From positions 1-64,000 of the forward strand of contig JAFRAO010000005.1 of NCBI GenBank assembly GCA_017405375.1: DNA of 64,000 nt, in the 5' to 3' direction. Shown piece by piece: positions 37,610 to 48,509 of the stretch. This DNA is from a bacterium. GTDB lineage: Bacteria > Cyanobacteriota > Vampirovibrionia > Gastranaerophilales > Gastranaerophilaceae. The stretch's first letter is position 1, and every line of letters starts with the position of its first letter. The translations under genes and the position numbers were made by a program. Below the pieces are notes generated by a model. It made no database searches and had not been told where the DNA came from. It was given only the letters and a program-made list of their open reading frames with translations.

Positions 37610-38908
37610 CTATAAACTTATTGGCCAATAGTAATCCACCAAATACGACGCTGCATCTAGAGGGTGCATTAAAAACTTTTTTTCTTTCGATTGTTTTATT
37701 TGCTGGAAACTCGGTATATCTATTCTCGATGAACCTTCTATGTATTTCAAGTTATAAATATTGTACAAAAGTTTTTCACATTTTGGAGAAACAAAAAGCC
37801 CTATTTCACCGTCTGCTCTGTGAATTTTACTGTTAAACGCCATTATCCTGTTCTTTATCGGCGGATTAAAAGGTTTTATCCTGATTTCAACATCATATCC
37901 ATACTCTATAAATTTTTTCTTCATTATAACGTAATTTGTATATTCGCTTGTGCAGCTTCTGTTATCGCCTGATGCATCACCGTTTATTATTAATTTTCCT
38001 CTGTGATTCGGGTAACGTCTGAAAACTTCATCACAAGCCTTTGATGTTGTCGTGTTTTCCATCGCTATTTCGTCAAAATAAAAAACCTTATCATCAGTTT
38101 TGTGAGCAATTTCCCAACACATAGGATCAACATTAAAATCACAAGTTATATACATGTCCAATTCAGGCTGATATTTTATATCGGCGATGTTTTTATTCGT
38201 AAAATCCTTTACCACAAGACCTGATGTGTAATGTCCGCTTTCTGCAAGAACGCAAATTCTGTAATACTCTTCATCATAAAGTTTTTTTAATTCATCACAA
38301 AAACCTTCGGGTAAAAATATATTTTGTGTTGTAGGAGCTGTTATAAGACGATAATTTGCAAGCGGATTTTCTATAAAAGTCTTATAAATCCAACCTCTTT
38401 CCATTTCAGGATTTGTGTGTCCAAAAATTCTGTATTGAAAATTTTTCCATTCTTCTCGTCTTTTTTGGCGCATTCTCGATAAAAGCATTTTAAAAGTTTC
38501 ATACGGAACTTCCGACATCTCTTCTATCTCTACAAAACCTAAATTTAGTGATTTTAATTGATTTGGCTCGTCAAAATGTTTAAATAATATCTCTGATTTG
38601 TTTTTGAAAGTTAATGTTTGCAAAGAGGCAGACCATTCGTAATCTTTGCCCTCAATAAATCCCATATTATCCAAATGTTCAAAATACTGTTTTAGAGTTG
38701 TATCTCTGACTAATGTATATGTTTTTGCACCCACAAGTCCTCGTATTCCGGGATATTTTAAACATAATAAAATACCCAATAACGAACCGCAAAAAGTTTT
38801 TCCGCTGCCATAACCGCCTTGATAAACAGCTACATCAATCGAATAATCATGCGGAATTTCTAAAAACTCCCTTTGCGCATCTAACAGACGGTATGTAATT
38901 TTATTCAT
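37610..38908 (-). CDS. Phage terminase large subunit
   Basis: A 432-residue packaging motor and nuclease. The ATPase half has Walker A GGYGSGKT (31-38) and Walker B GFVEIEEMSE (about 123-132), with the coupling segment FGHTNPE. The nuclease half has acidic sites in TCDFNVDPMCW and NGDASGDNRS. It resembles PBSX/Terminase_3-type enzymes. AGGAG precedes the ATG. Length is normal for a complete enzyme, so packaging could work. Confidence 0.92.
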   Translation of the reverse strand: MNKITYRLLDAQREFLEIPHDYSIDVAVYQGGYGSGKTFCGSLLGILLCLKYPGIRGLVGAKTYTLVRDTTLKQYFEHLDNMGFIEGKDYEWSASLQTLTFKNKSEILFKHFDEPNQLKSLNLGFVEIEEMSEVPYETFKMLLSRMRQKRREEWKNFQYRIFGHTNPEMERGWIYKTFIENPLANYRLITAPTTQNIFLPEGFCDELKKLYDEEYYRICVLAESGHYTSGLVVKDFTNKNIADIKYQPELDMYITCDFNVDPMCWEIAHKTDDKVFYFDEIAMENTTTSKACDEVFRRYPNHRGKLIINGDASGDNRSCTSEYTNYVIMKKKFIEYGYDVEIRIKPFNPPIKNRIMAFNSKIHRADGEIGLFVSPKCEKLLYNIYNLKYIEGSSRIDIPSFQQIKQSKEKKFLMHPLDAASYLVDYYWPISL

Positions 38909-38986: not shown

Positions 38987-40669
38987 TTATGAAAAGTTGT
39001 TTTTATCGGTTATTTGTAAATTATCTTTAGATTGTAAAAAATTGTTTGTATTTTCTATACCAAATTGTTCTAATGCAAACTTGAAGCATTCTAACCAATC
39101 AATTTGCTGATTTATCTCAGGAACTTCGGCAAACGATTTTACAATATCAAACAATTCTTTTGTTCGATTTTTTCTTTCAAATATTGCCTTTCTATCCCCG
39201 TATCTGTAAGTATAATTAGAATTTCTGATATTATCGTCTATTTCTAAAAATAACGTTTTACCATGATCTTTTATACAAATCGTTTCTTTCCCAAACTTAA
39301 AATTAGATATAATTTCTGCTGTTTTTTCTACCATTGGAATTATTAACTTCCTGCTTATTGCATCAAGTATCATGTTTAATCTCGCAGTTTGACCTGACAT
39401 TGAATATGTTAATTCAGTTGCAGTTCTGGCTTGATTTTGAATATTTCCGGTCATATTTTTGAATATACCTGTTGCACTCTCAATGGTTGTTTTAAAATAA
39501 TTTAAGAAATCCCATCCGTGCAAAGCATTATTAAAATTCAACGGAGTAGGAGCTTGCGGCATTAAAGATGCATCATATTCTATGATTTTTCCGGGTTTTA
39601 CTACTTGTTCACCCTTAAAACATCCTTTCGGTGCAAGATACGGCGGATTCATCATTAAAGACAACGCATCTAATTGCTTGTTTAATATAGTAGATGATAT
39701 ATTGTTCAAAATTATTGCAACTTTTAAAGGTGATATGCCGCGTTCTGTATCAGGATTTTTTATTACGTTTGCATATATAAAAGGATTTGTTACAAAAGGA
39801 TTATCTTCCATTCTGATAATTTCTTTTCTGCCTGCAACTACTATTAATTGATTTTTAAGTATTTCTCCGTTATCAAGCTCTATATCACCCCAATATTCAA
39901 GAATTTCTATTTTATTCCCGCTCACAGATTTATCACCGGATGAGTTTTTATTATGTTTATTCGTTAACAGATGTTTTAAATTTTCTATTTTTTCTTCCGT
40001 CAAAAGATTATTTGCCTTATCAGCAATTACATCATGTATAGTTGAATATATACGATAAATTTTCGGACACGAATCCCAATTTTCCATATTATTTTTATCA
40101 AAAACAAAATCTTCCGATTTTATAAATTTTATTTTTGCGTTATCATAAACAATTTGCTCTTCAACAATAAAACCTGTTTCTGTGGGATTAACCAACTGTT
40201 CTTCTATTGTTTGCGGACGTCTTACAACTCTTGTTTGAGTTTTCCACCCTACAAATATAGTGCTTTCACCCGTTTCAACAATCGAATCAATCATTTTTTC
40301 CATTTCTTCTTCAAGTTTCATTTTTTCAAATGTATCGACCAACATTGCCTTTTGACGATTTGCAAACATTTGAGATTGCGGTGTATTTCCTGTTACATCA
40401 AACATTGAATCCGGATGAGAATATAAATTTTCGCTTATATGCGCTTTTAATGTTTGCGCAAGCTCGTATATATCCGGTAATTGAACTTTTATATTCCATT
40501 CATTTACTCTCGGTATATCCGTATTGTAAATAGCATTTTTTATTAAGTTTATATCTTCTATTTGACCTCTTCTGGAAGTTTCCATTTTTTCATATTTTTC
40601 TGTTACAGAATGTATTAAAAATAATAATTCCTCTTTATTGTCTTTTTTCCTATCTTTAATATTATTCAT
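38987..40669 (-). CDS. Phage portal protein
   Basis: A 560-residue protein. The N-terminal helical part, the crown and the C-terminal ATGIFKNMTGNIQNQARTATE-type segment resemble portals of short-tailed phages (P22-type head-to-tail connectors). The portal forms the dodecameric DNA gate at one capsid vertex. It is complete in length, lies 30 bases after the GNAT gene, and is followed by the terminator at 38944-38965. Confidence 0.85.
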   Translation of the reverse strand: MNNIKDRKKDNKEELLFLIHSVTEKYEKMETSRRGQIEDINLIKNAIYNTDIPRVNEWNIKVQLPDIYELAQTLKAHISENLYSHPDSMFDVTGNTPQSQMFANRQKAMLVDTFEKMKLEEEMEKMIDSIVETGESTIFVGWKTQTRVVRRPQTIEEQLVNPTETGFIVEEQIVYDNAKIKFIKSEDFVFDKNNMENWDSCPKIYRIYSTIHDVIADKANNLLTEEKIENLKHLLTNKHNKNSSGDKSVSGNKIEILEYWGDIELDNGEILKNQLIVVAGRKEIIRMEDNPFVTNPFIYANVIKNPDTERGISPLKVAIILNNISSTILNKQLDALSLMMNPPYLAPKGCFKGEQVVKPGKIIEYDASLMPQAPTPLNFNNALHGWDFLNYFKTTIESATGIFKNMTGNIQNQARTATELTYSMSGQTARLNMILDAISRKLIIPMVEKTAEIISNFKFGKETICIKDHGKTLFLEIDDNIRNSNYTYRYGDRKAIFERKNRTKELFDIVKSFAEVPEINQQIDWLECFKFALEQFGIENTNNFLQSKDNLQITDKNNFS

Positions 40670-40699: not shown

Positions 40700-41215
40700 T
40701 TATTTGTTCAAAATCGAATATATTTTTACATCTTGTAATTTTCCGTTTTTCATTGTTTCTGCTTTTAATTCAGCTTCTAATGACATCCCTGCTGATTTTA
40801 ATATTGAAAATGCCCTGAAATTTTCACTATAAACTATCGCTTTAAGTTTTTTTAATTTTAATTTCTTAAAACAATATTTTATAAACTTTTTAGCAGCCAG
40901 TCCTGTAAAATGCCCCCAATACTCTTTCTTGAAACAAGTCGTAATCTCGGCAGAATGAATATTTTTATCAGAACCAATGATATTTTCCAAAAAAACAAAG
41001 CCTGCAAATTTATTATCTTTTAATATTACCCAGAAAAACGGAGTGTTACGTTCTATCGTATTTATCACAACATCTAACAATGATTTTTCCTTTACAAAAT
41101 CATCATTTAAATATCTGTTATATTTTTGATACAATCTAAAAACGTCTTCTATAAACGTAATATTCTTAAATTGTTTATTAATTCTGTCTATTTTTAATTT
41201 TACAAATTTTATCAT
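40700..41215 (-). CDS. GNAT-family N-acetyltransferase inside the phage cluster
   Basis: A 171-residue protein. FFWVILKDNKFAGFVFLENI, a weak acetyl-CoA segment GHFTGLAAKKFIKYCF, and AIVYSENFRAFSILKSAGMSLE form the GNAT fold pattern. GNAT genes occur in phage structural modules, but their targets are mostly unknown. It diverges from the plus-strand membrane gene with 56 bases between them, and precedes the portal gene. Confidence 0.8.
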   Translation of the reverse strand: MIKFVKLKIDRINKQFKNITFIEDVFRLYQKYNRYLNDDFVKEKSLLDVVINTIERNTPFFWVILKDNKFAGFVFLENIIGSDKNIHSAEITTCFKKEYWGHFTGLAAKKFIKYCFKKLKLKKLKAIVYSENFRAFSILKSAGMSLEAELKAETMKNGKLQDVKIYSILNK

Positions 41216-41245: not shown

Positions 41246-41271
41246 GTTACGAGGTATAGGAAGTGAAATTT

Positions 41272-41733
41272 ATGAATAACGACAATTTAATATTTGAACA
41301 ATACAAACTTTATACAAATCAAAAAGAAAATTTCGTAAACAGAAATTTTGAAACAAACAGATTTTATGCATGTTTCAATGTTCTGTTATTAATTCTTGTT
41401 TTTATTACTCAAGATATAAAAATGTATGCTGTTTCAGCATCTTGTTTATTATGTATTACAGGTTTTATCAGTTGTATATTATGGTGGATTAACATTGATT
41501 CTTACAACTTTTTAATCGGAATTAAATATGCCAAAGTAATTGAAGAATTAGAAAAACAACTTCCCGTTAATCCTTATACAATGGAACACACAGAAATAAC
41601 AAATTACAGATGCAATAAAAAAGGTATTTTCTTTAATGATGTTCAAAAAATATTTGCTATTGTCTTAATATTAGCTTTCTTTATTTGCCTTTTAATTAAT
41701 TTGACACCGCTATTTATTAAACCACAGCTTTAA
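41272..41733 (+). CDS. RipA-like membrane protein, only plus-strand gene in the phage cluster
   Basis: A 153-residue protein. The start EQYKLYTNQKENFVNRNFETNRF is followed by two close hydrophobic helices (FNVLLLILVFI; VSASCLLCITGFISCILWW), a cytosolic middle (SYNFLIGIKYAKVIEELEKQ) and a C-terminal helix. This resembles the RipA family of octameric membrane proteins as I recall it. AGGAAG nine bases before ATG 41272 sets the start. Opposite orientation suggests an accessory gene expressed separately. A role in phage exclusion is speculation. It overlaps the convergent neighbour by 17 bases. Confidence 0.65.
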   Translation: MNNDNLIFEQYKLYTNQKENFVNRNFETNRFYACFNVLLLILVFITQDIKMYAVSASCLLCITGFISCILWWINIDSYNFLIGIKYAKVIEELEKQLPVNPYTMEHTEITNYRCNKKGIFFNDVQKIFAIVLILAFFICLLINLTPLFIKPQL

Positions 41734-41974
41734 TTTGCGTATATTCAAATTTTACAAACGAATTTTCGGTAGAAAATATATCTGTTTCACCTTTTAACAA
41801 TTTTTCTCTTGATACATCGTCCAATCCGAGCAAGGCTTCTGCCTGCAATCCGTTTATATAACTCATTGTATTATTATCCTTATTATATTTTTTGAAAATT
41901 GTTTCCTTTGAAAATAATTTGCCTTTCGGAACTTGTTTTATATCATTTATTCGCTTTAAAAAAATATTCTCCAT
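41717..41974 (-). CDS. Small phage protein of unknown function, possibly joined to the upstream ORF by slippage
   Basis: An 85-residue protein from ATG 41974 (or TTG 41986, four codons earlier). It is lysine-rich at the start and contains MSYINGLQAEALLGLDDVSREKLLKG. The ATG lies at the end of an A10 run within the 47-residue ORF at 41943-42086, in another frame, and no SD precedes it. One base of slippage in the run would fuse the two into a protein of about 122 residues. Confidence 0.55.
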   Translation of the reverse strand: MENIFLKRINDIKQVPKGKLFSKETIFKKYNKDNNTMSYINGLQAEALLGLDDVSREKLLKGETDIFSTENSFVKFEYTQIKAVV

Positions 41975-42086
41975 TTTTTTTTTCAAAAAGATTTTTTATT
42001 TCTTCTTTCATTTTTATTTTTATTAATTCATCTATACTCTTTCCGGTTAAAAGAGCATCTTCTACTATTTTCTTTCGCTTATCCAT
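41943..42086 (-). CDS. 47-aa small ORF with strong SD, overlapping the next gene
   Basis: MDKRKKIVEDALLTG begins the ORF, and AAGGAG seven bases before the ATG makes translation likely. It starts 11 bases after the small terminase stop and reads through helical KEEIKNLFEKK into the A10 run at 41974-41983. The normal frame ends 31 bases after the run (TGA at 41943-41945). It may be the N-terminal part of the following ORF. Confidence 0.6.
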   Translation of the reverse strand: MDKRKKIVEDALLTGKSIDELIKIKMKEEIKNLFEKKNGEYFFKANK

Positions 42087-42096
42087 AAATATCTCC

Positions 42097-42522
42097 TTAT
42101 ATTTTTTTATCGTTTAAATTACTTATTGTAATGATTTTTGCTTCCAACGGTGAAGAGTCTTCTCTTGAAAATAAATATTTGCAAAGACTGTCAAGAGCTT
42201 TCAGAGCTGCTGATGTATCTCTTAATTTCTTTTTGCCTGTTATATTGCCTTCTTTATCCAAAATATCCTCTTCTTCCAAAGAAAATTCTGCAATTTGTAA
42301 TAATTTCTTTATTACATAACCTTTTTGTATTCTTAAAGAACGAATTTGTTTGTATAGCTGTTTATTTAATTCTTTAATAACGTCTTCATCAGAAAGTAGT
42401 TTATCTGCAACGGATTTTAAGTCTGATGATTTATATCCCGCTTTTTTTGCTGCTGTTTCTCCGTCAAGACTTTTTAAATATTCATATACAAATTTTTTCT
42501 GTTGTTGTGTGATTTTATCCAT
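42097..42522 (-). CDS. Phage terminase small subunit
   Basis: A 141-residue DNA-recognition subunit. TQQQKKFVYEYLKSLDGETAAKKAGYK is the typical N-terminal helix-turn-helix of Terminase_2/XtmA-type small subunits. A central helical oligomerisation part (VIKELNKQLYKQIRSLRIQK) follows, and RDTSAALKALDSLCKYLF near the end is also typical. It is unusual in being separated from the large subunit by the portal and GNAT genes. Confidence 0.88.
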   Translation of the reverse strand: MDKITQQQKKFVYEYLKSLDGETAAKKAGYKSSDLKSVADKLLSDEDVIKELNKQLYKQIRSLRIQKGYVIKKLLQIAEFSLEEEDILDKEGNITGKKKLRDTSAALKALDSLCKYLFSREDSSPLEAKIITISNLNDKKI

Positions 42523-43351: not shown

Positions 43352-44050
43352 CTATTTTATAAGACCTTTTTTCATTTGGTCCATGATTAATAATTCATTC
43401 TTTAAAAATTCAGCGTTACTCATATTGTCAATTTGCTTACGCGTAAAAGGCAGCGAATTTTTATCTTCAGCATTGAATTTTTGAATATTTGAGATTAATC
43501 TTTGTTTTGCATGAAGATTTGATTTCTCTAAATTTTCCTCGTAAGCAACTTTCTTTAAATATCTGTCTATTGCAGAATTTTCAACTAATTCGACAATTTT
43601 TGAGATTTTAGAAAGTTCATCTGCATCAAATTGAATATAATCTGATTTTAAGTAGTTCAAAACTGCAGAACGTCCGTCTTGTTCAAAAAATTTCGGAGAA
43701 ATTTTATCAAATTCTTTTAAAATTTCTGATTTGTCAAGATTATTTATTTTGTCAACTCGCATATTGTCCTGTACTTTATTATTAAGCGCCCTGTTGATTA
43801 TAAGATTTAATAAATTTTGTCCTTGCTGCTCATTAACAAAACCAAGTGATAAAAGATTGCTTAAAGCATTTAAGTTCTCTTTAATCTCTTTTCTGTAATC
43901 TTGATTGTTTTCAGGAACTTTTATATCAAGTTTCTCTTCAATTAATTCTTTCAAATTCCCGTTTTCTGCCTGCTCATTATTTTTATTATCTTCAATTTGT
44001 TCTTCATTTGGTAGTATTTTATTTAATTCTTCGTTCATTTTAATTTTCAT
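43352..44050 (-). CDS. Probable scaffolding-type protein
   Basis: A 232-residue, very hydrophilic and almost wholly helical protein, with an Asn/Glu-rich N-terminus (LPNEEQIEDNKNNEQAENG) and a Lys-rich end (LLIMDQMKKGLIK). These traits and its location between capsid and adaptor genes fit a head scaffolding protein, although no motif proves it. The start is ATG 44050 or the fifth codon's ATG at 44038; AAGGA lies directly before the first. It overlaps the 80-aa gene by 11 bases. Confidence 0.5.
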   Translation of the reverse strand: MKIKMNEELNKILPNEEQIEDNKNNEQAENGNLKELIEEKLDIKVPENNQDYRKEIKENLNALSNLLSLGFVNEQQGQNLLNLIINRALNNKVQDNMRVDKINNLDKSEILKEFDKISPKFFEQDGRSAVLNYLKSDYIQFDADELSKISKIVELVENSAIDRYLKKVAYEENLEKSNLHAKQRLISNIQKFNAEDKNSLPFTRKQIDNMSNAEFLKNELLIMDQMKKGLIK

Positions 44051-44282
44051 TCCTTACTTCATTCATGTATTTGACAGCTTTTTCAATCGCAGAATCTATA
44101 AATTTATTTAACAAAAGTCCAACAATCTGTTTTATTGGCGCTACAACAGGAAGTCTGTTTACAACAAAATTGACGGCTGCAAGTTTTTTAGCTTTACCTG
44201 ATGATGTTGTTAAAGTTTTTTCTGCATAATTTACTGCGGCATACGCTAAATCATTAATTGTACTTTTCAAATTTTTAAACAT
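44040..44282 (-). CDS. 80-aa phage structural-module protein, unknown
   Basis: A small basic protein with two amphipathic helices: TINDLAYAAVNYAEKTL and FIDSAIEKAVKYMNEV. Between them is VVNRLPVVAPIKQIVGLLL. The shape recalls the soluble part of LL-H-type phage holins, but no membrane segment is clear, so that is a weak guess. AAGGAG six bases before the ATG. It is between capsid and scaffold-like genes. Confidence 0.5.
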   Translation of the reverse strand: MFKNLKSTINDLAYAAVNYAEKTLTTSSGKAKKLAAVNFVVNRLPVVAPIKQIVGLLLNKFIDSAIEKAVKYMNEVRNEN

Positions 44283-44370: not shown

Positions 44371-45351
44371 CTATTGACCACCACCACCTTCAGTGCCGCC
44401 TGTTGTATCACCTTCGGTTGTACCGGTAGTATCACCGCTTTGTGCATTATCTGTTTCTTCTGTTGTTTCTTCACTTGCAGCAGTCGGATCTGCAACAATC
44501 ATTTTTGCTAATGCTTTTGGTTGAACAGTTTTTGCACCGTATAAATATAAACCTCTTACTAAATCAGCAAATGAATCTTTATCTCTTAGTGTTTCTATTT
44601 TTGCAAGTTGAGATGCAAATGTTATTGCATCGTTTGTTCCAGCTAAAACATAAAATACACCTGAAGTTGCAGTTAAGTTTGTACTAACCAAAACGTCCAT
44701 GCCTGCAATTCTGCCGATAGAACCTTCTCTTAATGTTTCATCAGCTACATTATGTGCGTTTATAAATTCTGTACTTTGCAATAAATATGATTCAATTACA
44801 GGATTTATTACAACCCATGGAGTTTTATTTCCGGATAATGCATTTGAATTTTTTAATTTTAAAGCTAATTCAACAAATTTTGAATAGATTGTTGATTTAT
44901 TTAATTCTATTGCGGATTCTTCACTACCTACGATATTGTTTTCATCAACTTCTGTGTGCATACCTAACAAAAATGAATCTTGAACTTCTTCAATAGCATT
45001 TTTTGCGCTTGTTAAGTGAGCTTCCATAATACTTTGATTTGCTTGCGCTTGAGCAATATCATTAATTTTAAATGCAAAGTATTTCTTTTGATCGATTGTA
45101 AGACTCATTGAAGATGGCGAAAGCTCGTTATAAGAAAGACTGTCTGAACTTACTGTTGAAATTGTAACCGCAGCAGGAGTAATAATTTTAACCTTATCTC
45201 CCTGATTTTGAATTTCACCTTCATAATTACGATTAACGCATTGTAGCATAACGCAATTTTTTTCAAGTAAAGTGTTCAACTTTTTACTCCAAACTTCAGG
45301 AATAAAAGCTGAATAAGCATTTGTTTGTGTTGTTTCTGATGATTCTGTCAT
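44371..45351 (-). CDS. Major capsid (coat) protein
   Basis: A 326-residue protein starting at ATG 45351 (AAAGGG upstream), not at the further ATG at 45390. AYSAFIPEVWSKKLNTLLEK, GDKVKIITPAAVTI, TIDQKKYFAFKINDIAQAQ and WVVINPVIESYLLQ are typical of HK97-fold coats of the P22/N4-gp56 type. The last 34 residues are a Thr/Gly/Glu tail (DTTGTTEGDTTGGTEGGGG), probably disordered and surface-exposed. Codons look well optimised, which fits a highly made protein. Confidence 0.85.
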   Translation of the reverse strand: MTESSETTQTNAYSAFIPEVWSKKLNTLLEKNCVMLQCVNRNYEGEIQNQGDKVKIITPAAVTISTVSSDSLSYNELSPSSMSLTIDQKKYFAFKINDIAQAQANQSIMEAHLTSAKNAIEEVQDSFLLGMHTEVDENNIVGSEESAIELNKSTIYSKFVELALKLKNSNALSGNKTPWVVINPVIESYLLQSTEFINAHNVADETLREGSIGRIAGMDVLVSTNLTATSGVFYVLAGTNDAITFASQLAKIETLRDKDSFADLVRGLYLYGAKTVQPKALAKMIVADPTAASEETTEETDNAQSGDTTGTTEGDTTGGTEGGGGQ

Positions 45352-45445
45352 TTTTTTCCCTTTCTTTTTTGTATTACAAAATATACACATATATACACAT
45401 GTGCTTGATACAACAATAAAACTCTTTTAAAACTGTTTTTATCTT

Positions 45446-46960
45446 CTAATCTTCGTTATATATTTCCTTAAATTCGATTCCTATTATTGCAATATTGTTA
45501 TCTAAATTATTCCCTTCCACACAAATTTGAACAGCGTAATTTGCTTCTGAAATTTCAACTTTGTACATTGTTTCAGCATCTAATGCCCATATTGCAAAAT
45601 CATGCTCATCTGTCCATTTATCGTTATAATAAAATTTTGAATCGTCTTTATGCCAAATTAAATTTTCAAAATTGGTTGAATAAATCTTTTCACAATCATC
45701 TCTGTTTTCACTATCAAAATTTTTATATACTGAAAAATCAAATTTATTTTCATAACTTTCATCAAGAATAAAATAAAATTCATCTATTGTTTTTCTGATA
45801 GTGGGATTTCCTAGTGATAAGAACGGAGATTTCCACATGAATTCAATAGGTTCACCGTTAAATGAATTTCCTACATTTTCTTTATATATATTTCCGTTAT
45901 TATCAGCAGTTAATGCATAATCCTTGTACATACACGCACAAGTTATATTCTGAGGTAAAATCCTTTTATACCAAGCATTATTTACATAATCATTTATCCA
46001 TATTGTATGAAAATAGTTGTCGTATTGATATGGAATAAAGTACCAAATCTGATTTTTCCCTTCGTAATGGAATGCAAAAATTTCATTAAAACGAGATGTT
46101 TCAAATTTTGTAAATTCACTTTTAATTTTTTCTGTAATTTCACTGCCTAAGACTATTTGATTTAGGTCCCCAACTTGAAGTGTATAAATTCCGTTTGCAA
46201 AAAAATATTGTTTATTATTAACAGTAATTATTCCGTTTTGAGAAACTGCACCCTTATCGGCAAAAGGTGTAATTGCGAAATCTGTGGGAGAAGAACCTGT
46301 TAATAAATAAACTTTATTCTTTTTATATACTGCCAAATAATCTTTATAAGGTTTTAAAGCAATAATTCTATCTGTATCAGTATAAAATCCGCTAATATAA
46401 CCTGCATCGTTTGGTGTTTGAAAATCGGTATAACTTCCGAGTGCTGAAAAATAGATACTTGAATCTGATGCAGCCCAAACCCTTCCTTTATATACTGCTA
46501 CTATATCTGAATATACAGGTTGATTTTCTGATATTTCTAAATTGCAATTTATAATATCATAACTGCTGTTATTTTTTATAAAAAACATTTCGTCTTGCAA
46601 ACTTGAAACCAATACCCCATTCAAAAAATCCGTAAATACCGGCTTTGGAGAATTTAGTGTTCTTTCAAGCAATGTAAGATTATCTGTTGTATCATCATAT
46701 ATATATATTTTACCGGATTCTGTTGCTATTATAAGTCTATATACATCTGCATATTTCATTTCATGCAACGCTGTAATTTTTTCGTTATCAGGAATCTTTT
46801 TATATAAAACATTCCCTTTTTGACGGATTATACCTTTATTTTGAAAAATTTCCACATTTTTGGAATCACTCCAATAAATATTTTTTGTATTTAGACCGAG
46901 TTCTGTTTTAGTTGTCGCCTGATTTATTCCACCTGACAAATTATAATAAAAAGTTTCCAT
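45446..46960 (-). CDS. P22 gp10-like tail hub (DNA stabilisation) protein
   Basis: A 504-residue beta-rich protein. It begins METFYYNLSGGINQATTKTE and has several WD-like blade segments (YRLIIATESGKIYIYDD; KGRVWAASDSSIYFSALGS; YLAVYKKNKVYLLTG). This layout suits the beta-propeller hub that closes the portal channel after packaging in short-tailed phages. It lies between endolysin and capsid genes, one base after the endolysin stop. The function is assigned from pattern only. Confidence 0.7.
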   Translation of the reverse strand: METFYYNLSGGINQATTKTELGLNTKNIYWSDSKNVEIFQNKGIIRQKGNVLYKKIPDNEKITALHEMKYADVYRLIIATESGKIYIYDDTTDNLTLLERTLNSPKPVFTDFLNGVLVSSLQDEMFFIKNNSSYDIINCNLEISENQPVYSDIVAVYKGRVWAASDSSIYFSALGSYTDFQTPNDAGYISGFYTDTDRIIALKPYKDYLAVYKKNKVYLLTGSSPTDFAITPFADKGAVSQNGIITVNNKQYFFANGIYTLQVGDLNQIVLGSEITEKIKSEFTKFETSRFNEIFAFHYEGKNQIWYFIPYQYDNYFHTIWINDYVNNAWYKRILPQNITCACMYKDYALTADNNGNIYKENVGNSFNGEPIEFMWKSPFLSLGNPTIRKTIDEFYFILDESYENKFDFSVYKNFDSENRDDCEKIYSTNFENLIWHKDDSKFYYNDKWTDEHDFAIWALDAETMYKVEISEANYAVQICVEGNNLDNNIAIIGIEFKEIYNED

Positions 46961-46961
46961 T

Positions 46962-47462
46962 TTATACTCCTTGTAATATTTTTTGCAAATACCATTTTAT
47001 TTTTGTTCTTATAAATTTTCCTATTTCATCAGTTTCTACCCAAGAATACGAAGGTATAAAAGTCATATCAATTTTACCTGCACTCGTTGTATTCGGATTT
47101 AATTTTCCAAATTCATAATGTGTTAAAACAGTGTTTTTGGTAATCGGAATATTAAATTTTCTTGAAAGGAATGCACAAAGTTGCATTGTTGTTTCAAATT
47201 GAATTTTTGTTATCGGGTAATCTCCAATATTTTTTCTGTTTTTATACCCTAACATTCCGCAAAGAGCCACACCAATAGAACCGGTATTTCCGCCACCTGT
47301 ATGTGCAGCATACATGCCTGTTTGACACTTTTCATTTGCAATAGGTTTAAATGCTCCTTCGTGTATTTTCCCATATTTATCTATCAAATAATGATAGTGT
47401 TCTTTTTCATACGAATTAGGGACAGAGAATCCTGCTGTCCAATGTATAATTATCCTTTTCAT
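46962..47462 (-). CDS. Phage endolysin, N-acetylmuramoyl-L-alanine amidase (Amidase_2)
   Basis: A 166-residue zinc amidase that cuts the bond between muramic acid and L-Ala in peptidoglycan. IIIHWTAG (His7), AAHTGGGNTGSIGVALCG, and THYEF give the metal ligands and fold. GKIDMTFIP carries the usual Asp and Lys. There is no signal peptide, so release through a holin is expected. It lies eight bases after the LuxR-type gene. Confidence 0.92.
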   Translation of the reverse strand: MKRIIIHWTAGFSVPNSYEKEHYHYLIDKYGKIHEGAFKPIANEKCQTGMYAAHTGGGNTGSIGVALCGMLGYKNRKNIGDYPITKIQFETTMQLCAFLSRKFNIPITKNTVLTHYEFGKLNPNTTSAGKIDMTFIPSYSWVETDEIGKFIRTKIKWYLQKILQGV

Positions 47463-47470
47463 TTCTATCC

Positions 47471-47704
47471 TTATTTTTTTCTTTCGTATTCTCTAATGTA
47501 CTTTGCTACAAGCGCAAGTCTGTTTCTGGTTTGTAACTTGTACATAAGTCTTTCAACATAAGTTTGAACAGTTCGTTTCGATATATTCATTTTTGTAGAA
47601 ATTTCTTTATCCATAAAACCGTTACATAAAAGTTTTATAACCTGTGTTTCTCTTCCTGATAAGTTCATTTCATACTTCCTTAAATATCCTGTACTATTTT
47701 TCAT
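47471..47704 (-). CDS. Stand-alone LuxR/GerE-type HTH regulator
   Basis: A 77-residue protein composed almost only of the LuxR-type DNA-binding domain: LSGRETQVIKLLCNGFMDKEI, then MNISKRTVQTYVERLMYKLQ. It has no receiver or sensor domain, as in GerE-type regulators. As second gene of the phage-like operon it could activate the operon's own promoter through the dyad array at 48247-48316. That link is inference. Confidence 0.9.
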   Translation of the reverse strand: MKNSTGYLRKYEMNLSGRETQVIKLLCNGFMDKEISTKMNISKRTVQTYVERLMYKLQTRNRLALVAKYIREYERKK

Positions 47705-47758: not shown

Positions 47759-48118
47759 TTAGCCAATTCTTCCTATGTTTAAGTAGCTTAAATTCGAATA
47801 ACACTTTTTTTTCGTACCAAATTCATTGTAATATAAATAAAAGGAAGATTTAGCACTATGGTTATTAAATACATATTCAATTTTTTCTCTTACAATATCT
47901 TTTTCACATTTTTTAAAAAATTTTTTAGCTTTTTGATTTTTAAGTTTATAAGTTGATACATTATTGCATTTATCTAATCTAAAAAGATATAATGTTGTAT
48001 GATGGCAAACGGGACATTCTTCCAAATATCTTAATTCTTTATAAATATAAAAATCATCAGGTACAAGTTCATAGGTTCTGCATTCACGCAAACCGCTACA
48101 ACATTGAATATATCGCAT
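47759..48118 (-). CDS. Zinc-ribbon-like protein, first gene of the phage cluster
   Basis: A 119-residue protein with likely metal sites: CCSGLREC near residues 6-13, CPVCHH near 35-40 and a single Cys later. The rest is basic and Tyr-rich (KLKNQKAKKFFKKCEKDIV). AGGAG five bases before the ATG. I recognise no characterised family. Position as first gene suggests a regulator or adaptor acting early. Confidence 0.6.
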   Translation of the reverse strand: MRYIQCCSGLRECRTYELVPDDFYIYKELRYLEECPVCHHTTLYLFRLDKCNNVSTYKLKNQKAKKFFKKCEKDIVREKIEYVFNNHSAKSSFYLYYNEFGTKKKCYSNLSYLNIGRIG

Positions 48119-48218: not shown

Positions 48219-48224
48219 ATTATA
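48219..48224 (-). promoter_or_regulatory. Promoter -10 box of the phage-like operon
   Basis: TATAAT on the minus strand, about 100 bases before the first gene. The expected -35 region (48242-48247) reads ACTAAA, a poor match. The box lies within an inverted repeat ATGTA...TACAT. The tandem dyad array starts at the -35 position and continues upstream, as for an activator-dependent promoter. Confidence 0.55.
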
Positions 48225-48246
48225 CATTTTTGATTTATAAATTTAG

Positions 48247-48316
48247 TCCGCATTTTTACGTAAGTATTTTTACGTCCGTAATATTACGTCCGAATTAATA
48301 CGTCCGTATTTTTACG
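48247..48316. repeat. Tandem array of five 14-bp dyad repeats (operator or iteron array)
   Basis: Units: TCCGCATTTTTACG, TAAGTATTTTTACG, TCCGTAATATTACG, TCCGAATTAATACG, TCCGTATTTTTACG, head to tail without gaps. Each is an (im)perfect dyad CGTA-N4-TACG joined by TC; the third is a perfect 12-bp palindrome (CGTAATATTACG). They lie in the 391-bp gap between the radical SAM gene and the phage-like operon. Confidence 0.85.
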
Positions 48317-48509
48317 GACAAGCAATCGCTCAAAATGTTTATAAATAAATGTATTTTAATATATTAAATTTATTCGCAAAAGTTACTATTGTAAAATTTA
48401 TTACAAATTTTATTACATCCTAAAAACTAATTATAATAATAATTTTGACACTTTACAAAACTTCACACAAAAACTAAAAATCCGTTTTTTATATTTTTTA
48501 TTTTGACTG
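48317..48509. other. AT-rich intergenic stretch
   Basis: No gene seen. It follows the dyad array and precedes the radical SAM stop codon. Very AT-rich (48335-48480), which would suit a DNA-unwinding element if the array is an origin, but no DnaA box was recognised. Confidence 0.35.

Follow-up and report, generated by a model that had tools for sequence, protein, structure and literature searches.

What does a tandem array of short dyads do in front of a phage-like operon in a bacterial chromosome? The question is raised by a 64,000-nucleotide stretch of a Gastranaerophilaceae genome (Cyanobacteriota; GCA_017405375.1, contig JAFRAO010000005.1, positions 1 to 64,000), here called the window, in which five 14-bp units lie directly upstream of an operon for capsid, portal, terminase and other particle genes. 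We consider it likely that this array is the operator for the operon's own LuxR-type helix-turn-helix (HTH) protein. Once bound, the protein would turn on the podovirus-type particle operon, which is inherited vertically and encodes capsid, portal, terminase, tail parts, holin and amidase; in trans it would also turn on payload genes, many of whose products have a helix-loop-helix tag in common with the cluster protein P232.

On the minus strand, from 48319 to 48246, the array reads GTCC-GTAAAAATAC-GGAC-GTATTAATTC-GGAC-GTAATATTAC-GGAC-GTAAAAATAC-TTAC-GTAAAAATGC-GGAC. The motif GTA-N4-TAC is matched at 28 of 30 arm positions and the two 4-bp ends match at 8 of 8, while Tandem Repeats Finder (TRF) reports a period of 14 and 5.4 copies. 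A preliminary description of this DNA had spoken of five tandem CGTA-N4-TACG dyads; the five 14-bp units stand, but just two of the dyads are exact, the remaining three have one mismatch apiece, and the final joint is TTAC, unlike the GGAC at the other joints. In the window, the exact dyad is observed 2 times versus 0.23 expected, and the joint TACGTCCG 4 times versus 0.21 expected (0/100 shuffles). A three-unit, 26-base pattern with up to three mismatches has matches in 23 of 383 family genomes, and the reversed pattern in 0 of 383. Because of the local shuffles and this family-wide search with its reversed-pattern control, a chance origin is excluded, and the tandem dyad array is confirmed as genuine. 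No second full array was found in the source genome, which is 88.6% complete (1.78 Mb, 49 contigs). Searching with a single unit plus GGACTTGYGG, allowing two mismatches, returned mostly background matches, as in the control.

How might such an array act? At a 17-nt spacer the -35 position reads ACTAAA, which has 2 of 6 matches to TTGACA and bears out the earlier remark that the -35 is poor. The preliminary description had proposed looking for the array in relatives that carry the cluster, where its absence would count against the reading; in most of them the array does stand before the same operon, with two to five units. Same-genus relatives have three (G001, G002 and G003) or four (G006), and a divergent gene begins on the array's far side there; in other genera the number is usually three and sometimes two. 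The distance from GGAC to the -10 box is 25 nt in the window's genus and 26 nt in nearly all other genera, so the array has the geometry of a class II promoter site, abutting or replacing the -35 element and keeping a constant spacing to the -10 box. Since successive half-sites are 7 bp apart and alternate in orientation, HTH dimers would sit side by side every 14 bp, with the end of the array standing in for the -35 element in class II-like activation. Three units make 42 bp, or four helical turns, and three dimers could therefore wrap the DNA once. Positive feedback would be expected because the HTH gene lies within the operon.

The same protein might instead bind the array and repress its own operon by blocking RNA polymerase, and the array does extend into the -35 region, where bound protein could exclude polymerase. 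However, there is no -35 element for unaided polymerase, and the near-fixed 25- to 27-nt distance between array and -10 box, kept over many genera and at trans sites, is what an activator in contact with polymerase would show. We therefore think autorepression unlikely, and the activation proposed in the preliminary description is favored by the fixed spacing together with the missing -35.

Which protein would bind the array? The bare LuxR-type HTH protein encoded by the second gene of the operon had been put forward as a natural candidate, and its role as the array's ligand is supported by comparisons between relatives, in which the recognition helix co-varies with the dyad. At 77 aa it is HTH only, without a receiver or ligand-binding domain, and in a sequence search it matches solved NarL-family DNA-binding domains. 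The recognition helix RTV[QE] is paired with a GTA-N4-TAC dyad in 27 of 27 loci, and [YQ]GTVR with ATG-N4-CAT in 26 of 27, one of the 26 (L264) being a weak match that was left out of the tree test. Helix class and dyad class are concordant in 53 of the 54 automatically classified loci, the sole discordant one being ambiguous, but these are not 53 independent events, because the particle-gene tree offers only three independent pairs; the Fisher value for the association likewise ignores kinship. In genome G023, where the helix is YGTVR, a variant ACA-N4-TGT array stands at the cluster and again at a tagged gene in trans, which further supports the HTH protein as ligand.

Another, host-encoded regulator could govern the operon and the trans genes, with the HTH protein acting elsewhere. 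The trans arrays lie a long way from the HTH gene, on host contigs, several other LuxR-type proteins are encoded in these genomes, and gene transfer agents are usually under host and/or agent-specific control (PMC11841831). Yet the dyad tracks the helix class of this HTH protein, the sole regulator compared, and the G023 variant appears at the cluster and in trans alike, which makes a separate host regulator improbable.

The trans sites indicate what else the HTH protein might control. Of the 15 trans arrays read in context, 12 stand before genes that have the tag, a DGTxVxxYYR motif or both; the other three (L112, the second array of L114, and the second array of L137, upstream of an LprI-like gene) have no such genes. 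Payload proteins have domains of the Lipase_3, GH108 and DUF6973 types, and beside their genes lie small membrane proteins or LprI-type lysozyme inhibitors. At one locus compared between G146 and G171, the N-terminus of the payload is the same and the C-terminus is different. A constant trafficking part, a variable effector and an immunity-like neighbor are thus found together, and the trans genes look like polymorphic toxins, so their products may well be toxic. Most of them lack the MuF match that would be expected of MuF polymorphic toxins. At L191 and L198, the coding sequence just upstream of tagged GH108 muramidase payloads is LprI-type lysozyme inhibitor-like, a plausible immunity protein. 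Array-like sites at L115 and L116 (G043:C20 and G230:C38) adjoin a family of proteins of ∼190 to 200 aa (QIIDxKVNGxDYxKIH) with no Pfam match.

The window's own genome has a trans tagged gene of 110 aa (G000:C22:46103-46435; L185:4604-4936), whose product has a Phage_Mu_F match above the cut-off and no recognized toxin domain. Its promoter, GTAAAAATACGGACTTGTGG, contains GTAAAAATACGGAC, and TATAAT lies 27 nt from GGAC. A VRR-NUC gene follows this gene, and the promoter motif is present at its G013 orthologue (L200) too. The recurrence of one promoter architecture before unrelated genes also bears on the alternative raised in the preliminary description, a replication origin with iterons, here one of a phage or plasmid. 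Tandem repeats that adjoin an AT-rich stretch would suit an origin; nevertheless, with the same array and -10 spacing before unrelated trans payload genes and no replication or initiator gene seen in the cluster, we regard this as so improbable that it can be set aside.

What connects the trans genes with the particle is the tag, the last 33 residues of P232 (consensus FTREQIGKMSxAEFxKNEKAIMEQLRKGLI), which recurs in alignments on the payload proteins. In an AlphaFold2 model of P232, residues 143-194 form a long helix and the C-terminus folds, with good confidence, into a helix-loop-helix at the position of the tag. In the 59 genomes searched, genes with the tag are present in 27 of 27 capsid-positive versus 3 of 32 capsid-negative genomes, the first count being inflated because P232 itself carries the tag; a hand count without P232 gives 18 of 27 versus 3 of 32. 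Tagged genes without a detectable close capsid gene are found in G004, G011 and G068 (L208, L209, L210 and L215), and these may be users of another particle, or leftovers. From the predicted structure, we hypothesize that P232 could function as a scaffold and that the tag could load payloads into the capsid. Taken as a whole, the idea of a vertically inherited capsid that loads dispersed, swappable toxins via a scaffold-derived tag, with particle and payload co-expressed through one HTH-bound array, is one that we offer tentatively and would not yet bet on.

The operon itself is no typical prophage, being present in single copy, kept by purifying selection and frequently found at a common chromosomal position: the capsid gene occurs once, at 62-81% identity, in roughly half of the sampled family genomes, the ratio of nonsynonymous to synonymous substitution rates (dN/dS) is 0.02-0.19 in all cluster genes tested, and the radical SAM gene that adjoins the array in the window is in the same place in 35 of the 68 loci with enough upstream sequence. 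In dozens of genomes across the family the order is kept as ORF1 (open reading frame 1), HTH, amidase, 504-aa protein, capsid, holin, P232, P213, terminase small subunit, P89, GNAT, portal and terminase large subunit. More distant capsid forms occur in other families, and close matches in the viral collection are short contigs with the same gene block. No integrase or replication gene was seen among the cluster and flanking genes of the window, though the relatives were not each formally scanned. Together with capsids of isolated phages that reach up to 46% identity, this lack would suit a decaying prophage remnant, in which the array is a relic phage late promoter. However, the low dN/dS, a gene order and flanking gene kept across many genera, reading frames that are intact in most isolates, and close viral-collection relatives that amount to short contigs with the same block make decay very unlikely.

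Instead, the cluster fits a domesticated podovirus-type element of the gene transfer agent type. Structural and packaging genes of phage derivation lie together in the host chromosome (capsid, portal, both terminase subunits, tail parts, holin and amidase), there are signs of vertical inheritance and purifying selection (gene order, radical SAM neighbor, dN/dS and single-copy capsid), and accessory genes elsewhere appear to be under the same control (trans arrays before tagged genes). Judging by this gene content, the cluster presumably forms particles. The features are collected in Table 1; in addition, an 8xMP membrane protein gene (41263-41733, plus strand) lies on the opposite strand inside the cluster in the window's genus and its nearest relatives.

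Table 1. Coordinates, strand and supporting matches of the array, its promoter and the particle operon in the window
Feature	Position	Strand	Remarks
Operator array (putative)	48246..48319	minus	five 14-bp units (10-bp dyad GTA-N4-TAC + 4-bp joint), flanked by GTCC and GGAC
-10 box TATAAT	48219..48224	minus	25 nt from first G of last GGAC; no recognizable -35
Structured 5' leader RNA, 13 base pairs in 3 stacked helices	48161..48208	minus	directly after array promoter
ORF1, 119 aa, zinc-ribbon-like cysteine pattern, first operon gene	47759..48118	minus	no Pfam or PHROG match
77-aa bare GerE/LuxR-type HTH, proposed array ligand	47471..47704	minus	Pfam GerE (PF00196) E 8e-17, above cut-off
Amidase (endolysin)	46962..47462	minus	Pfam Amidase_2 2e-14; PHROG endolysin 6e-32
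504-aa virion structural protein (probably tail-nozzle-like)	45446..46960	minus	phrog_3287 2e-15
Major capsid protein	44371..45390	minus	phrog_267 1e-54; single copy in relatives
Holin	44040..44282	minus	Pfam Phage_holin_6_1, 26.6 bits vs cut-off 24.9
P232, scaffold-like all-helical virion protein	43352..44050	minus	C-terminal 33 residues = tag common to trans genes
Tail/adaptor protein P213	42651..43292	minus	phrog_6013 2.5e-6
Terminase small subunit (TerS)	42097..42522	minus	phrog_51 4e-15
P89, small conserved cluster protein	41717..41986	minus	conserved position; no Pfam match
GNAT acetyltransferase inside cluster	40700..41215	minus	Pfam Acetyltransf_3; conserved position
Portal / head-tail connector	38987..40669	minus	phrog_332 2e-34
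Terminase large subunit (TerL)	37610..38908	minus	phrog_2 2e-30

Between the promoter and the first gene lies a further conserved element, the leader RNA, which across relatives is a 46- to 50-nt hairpin element downstream of the -10 box. Compensatory changes are found at 9 of the 13 pairs, the signal is lost in slid controls, and RNAalifold recovers the same fold. A covariance model finds the leader once per genome, at the cluster (E 1.3e-12 for the one match in the window's own genome), with one extra weak match in G023; the region has no Rfam match. The internal-loop bases UAA, AAA and GUUU are invariant. A short coding region (KAHTRAGKAVFQI), whose frame is open in some species, was ruled out, as length and frame vary between genera and the base pairs co-vary. 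In 37 of 75 relatives, the gap between ORF1 and the HTH gene has a conserved AAATTATCTTACTCT followed by a T-tailed hairpin resembling an intrinsic terminator (L226, L229, L234, L236, L242 and others, and not in the window's genus). By analogy with the Caulobacter crescentus agent described below, our guess is that the leader RNA and ORF1 could form an antitermination module; the leader together with a terminator after the first gene makes processive antitermination directly testable.

Several observations weigh against reading the array as the HTH protein's operator for particle and payload genes. The particle-gene tree requires five helix-class changes and four array-class changes, and just one of the independent pairs falls on well-supported branches; in addition, ∼20 of 75 loci, mostly helix-Y, could not be classified automatically. 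At the G000:C22 trans site just one array unit is recognizable, and some tagged genes have no array and use ordinary promoters. The terminator between ORF1 and the HTH gene complicates feedback in the many relatives that have it. P232 has no PDB sequence match, no significant PDB fold match and no phage match, so that its description as scaffold-like rests on predicted shape. Finally, DNA binding, activation, feedback, particle formation and payload loading are all predictions from sequence.

If the operator reading holds, the array and HTH pair gives a testable regulatory code of recognition helix against dyad. Both Pfam and sequence comparison with solved structures assign the HTH protein the GerE fold of the NarL/FixJ domains (such as NarL, DosR/DevR and VraR), and NarL boxes have TAC/GTA half-site triplets, as in the array. 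Unlike those regulators, it has no receiver domain, and its half-sites alternate without a break at 7-bp intervals over two to five dyads.

Among gene transfer agents, that of Caulobacter crescentus (CcGTA) is controlled by GafY/GafZ, with a terminator after the first gene that GafZ permits polymerase to read through (PMC11150451). The cluster here is likewise phage-like, with a putative dedicated activator, accessory genes elsewhere and, in relatives, a terminator downstream of the first gene. In contrast to CcGTA, it has a bare LuxR-type HTH as candidate activator, a tandem 14-bp dyad array and a structured leader RNA. We found no paper that joins "gene transfer agent" with "Gastranaerophilales" in the literature library searched. 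Many genera in this family of uncultured gut bacteria have apparently retained a phage-derived particle, and if the particle carries host DNA, this would be a gene transfer agent in a branch of Cyanobacteriota.

The payloads invite comparison with the MuF polymorphic toxins, in which a MuF domain is fused to a toxin domain and encoded in the packaging module of temperate phages (PMC5576092). Those toxin domains too are joined to a virion-associated domain, with delivery from the head proposed, and the trans gene of the window's own genome has a Phage_Mu_F domain. Here, however, payload genes are dispersed in trans, most are without MuF and have a tag in common with P232 instead, and the particle is vertically inherited, unlike the temperate phages. 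The scaffolding protein of phage P22 offers another parallel: its C-terminal helix-turn-helix is needed for assembly, and cargo fused to the scaffold gets packaged (PMC9962691). In P232 a C-terminal helix-loop-helix is predicted, and this element is found again on payload proteins, although no match turned up in sequence or in fold, and cargo loading in P22 is man-made. If the tag does load payloads, bacteria have evolved modular protein delivery in phage capsids, a parallel in nature to the engineered loading of cargo in P22.
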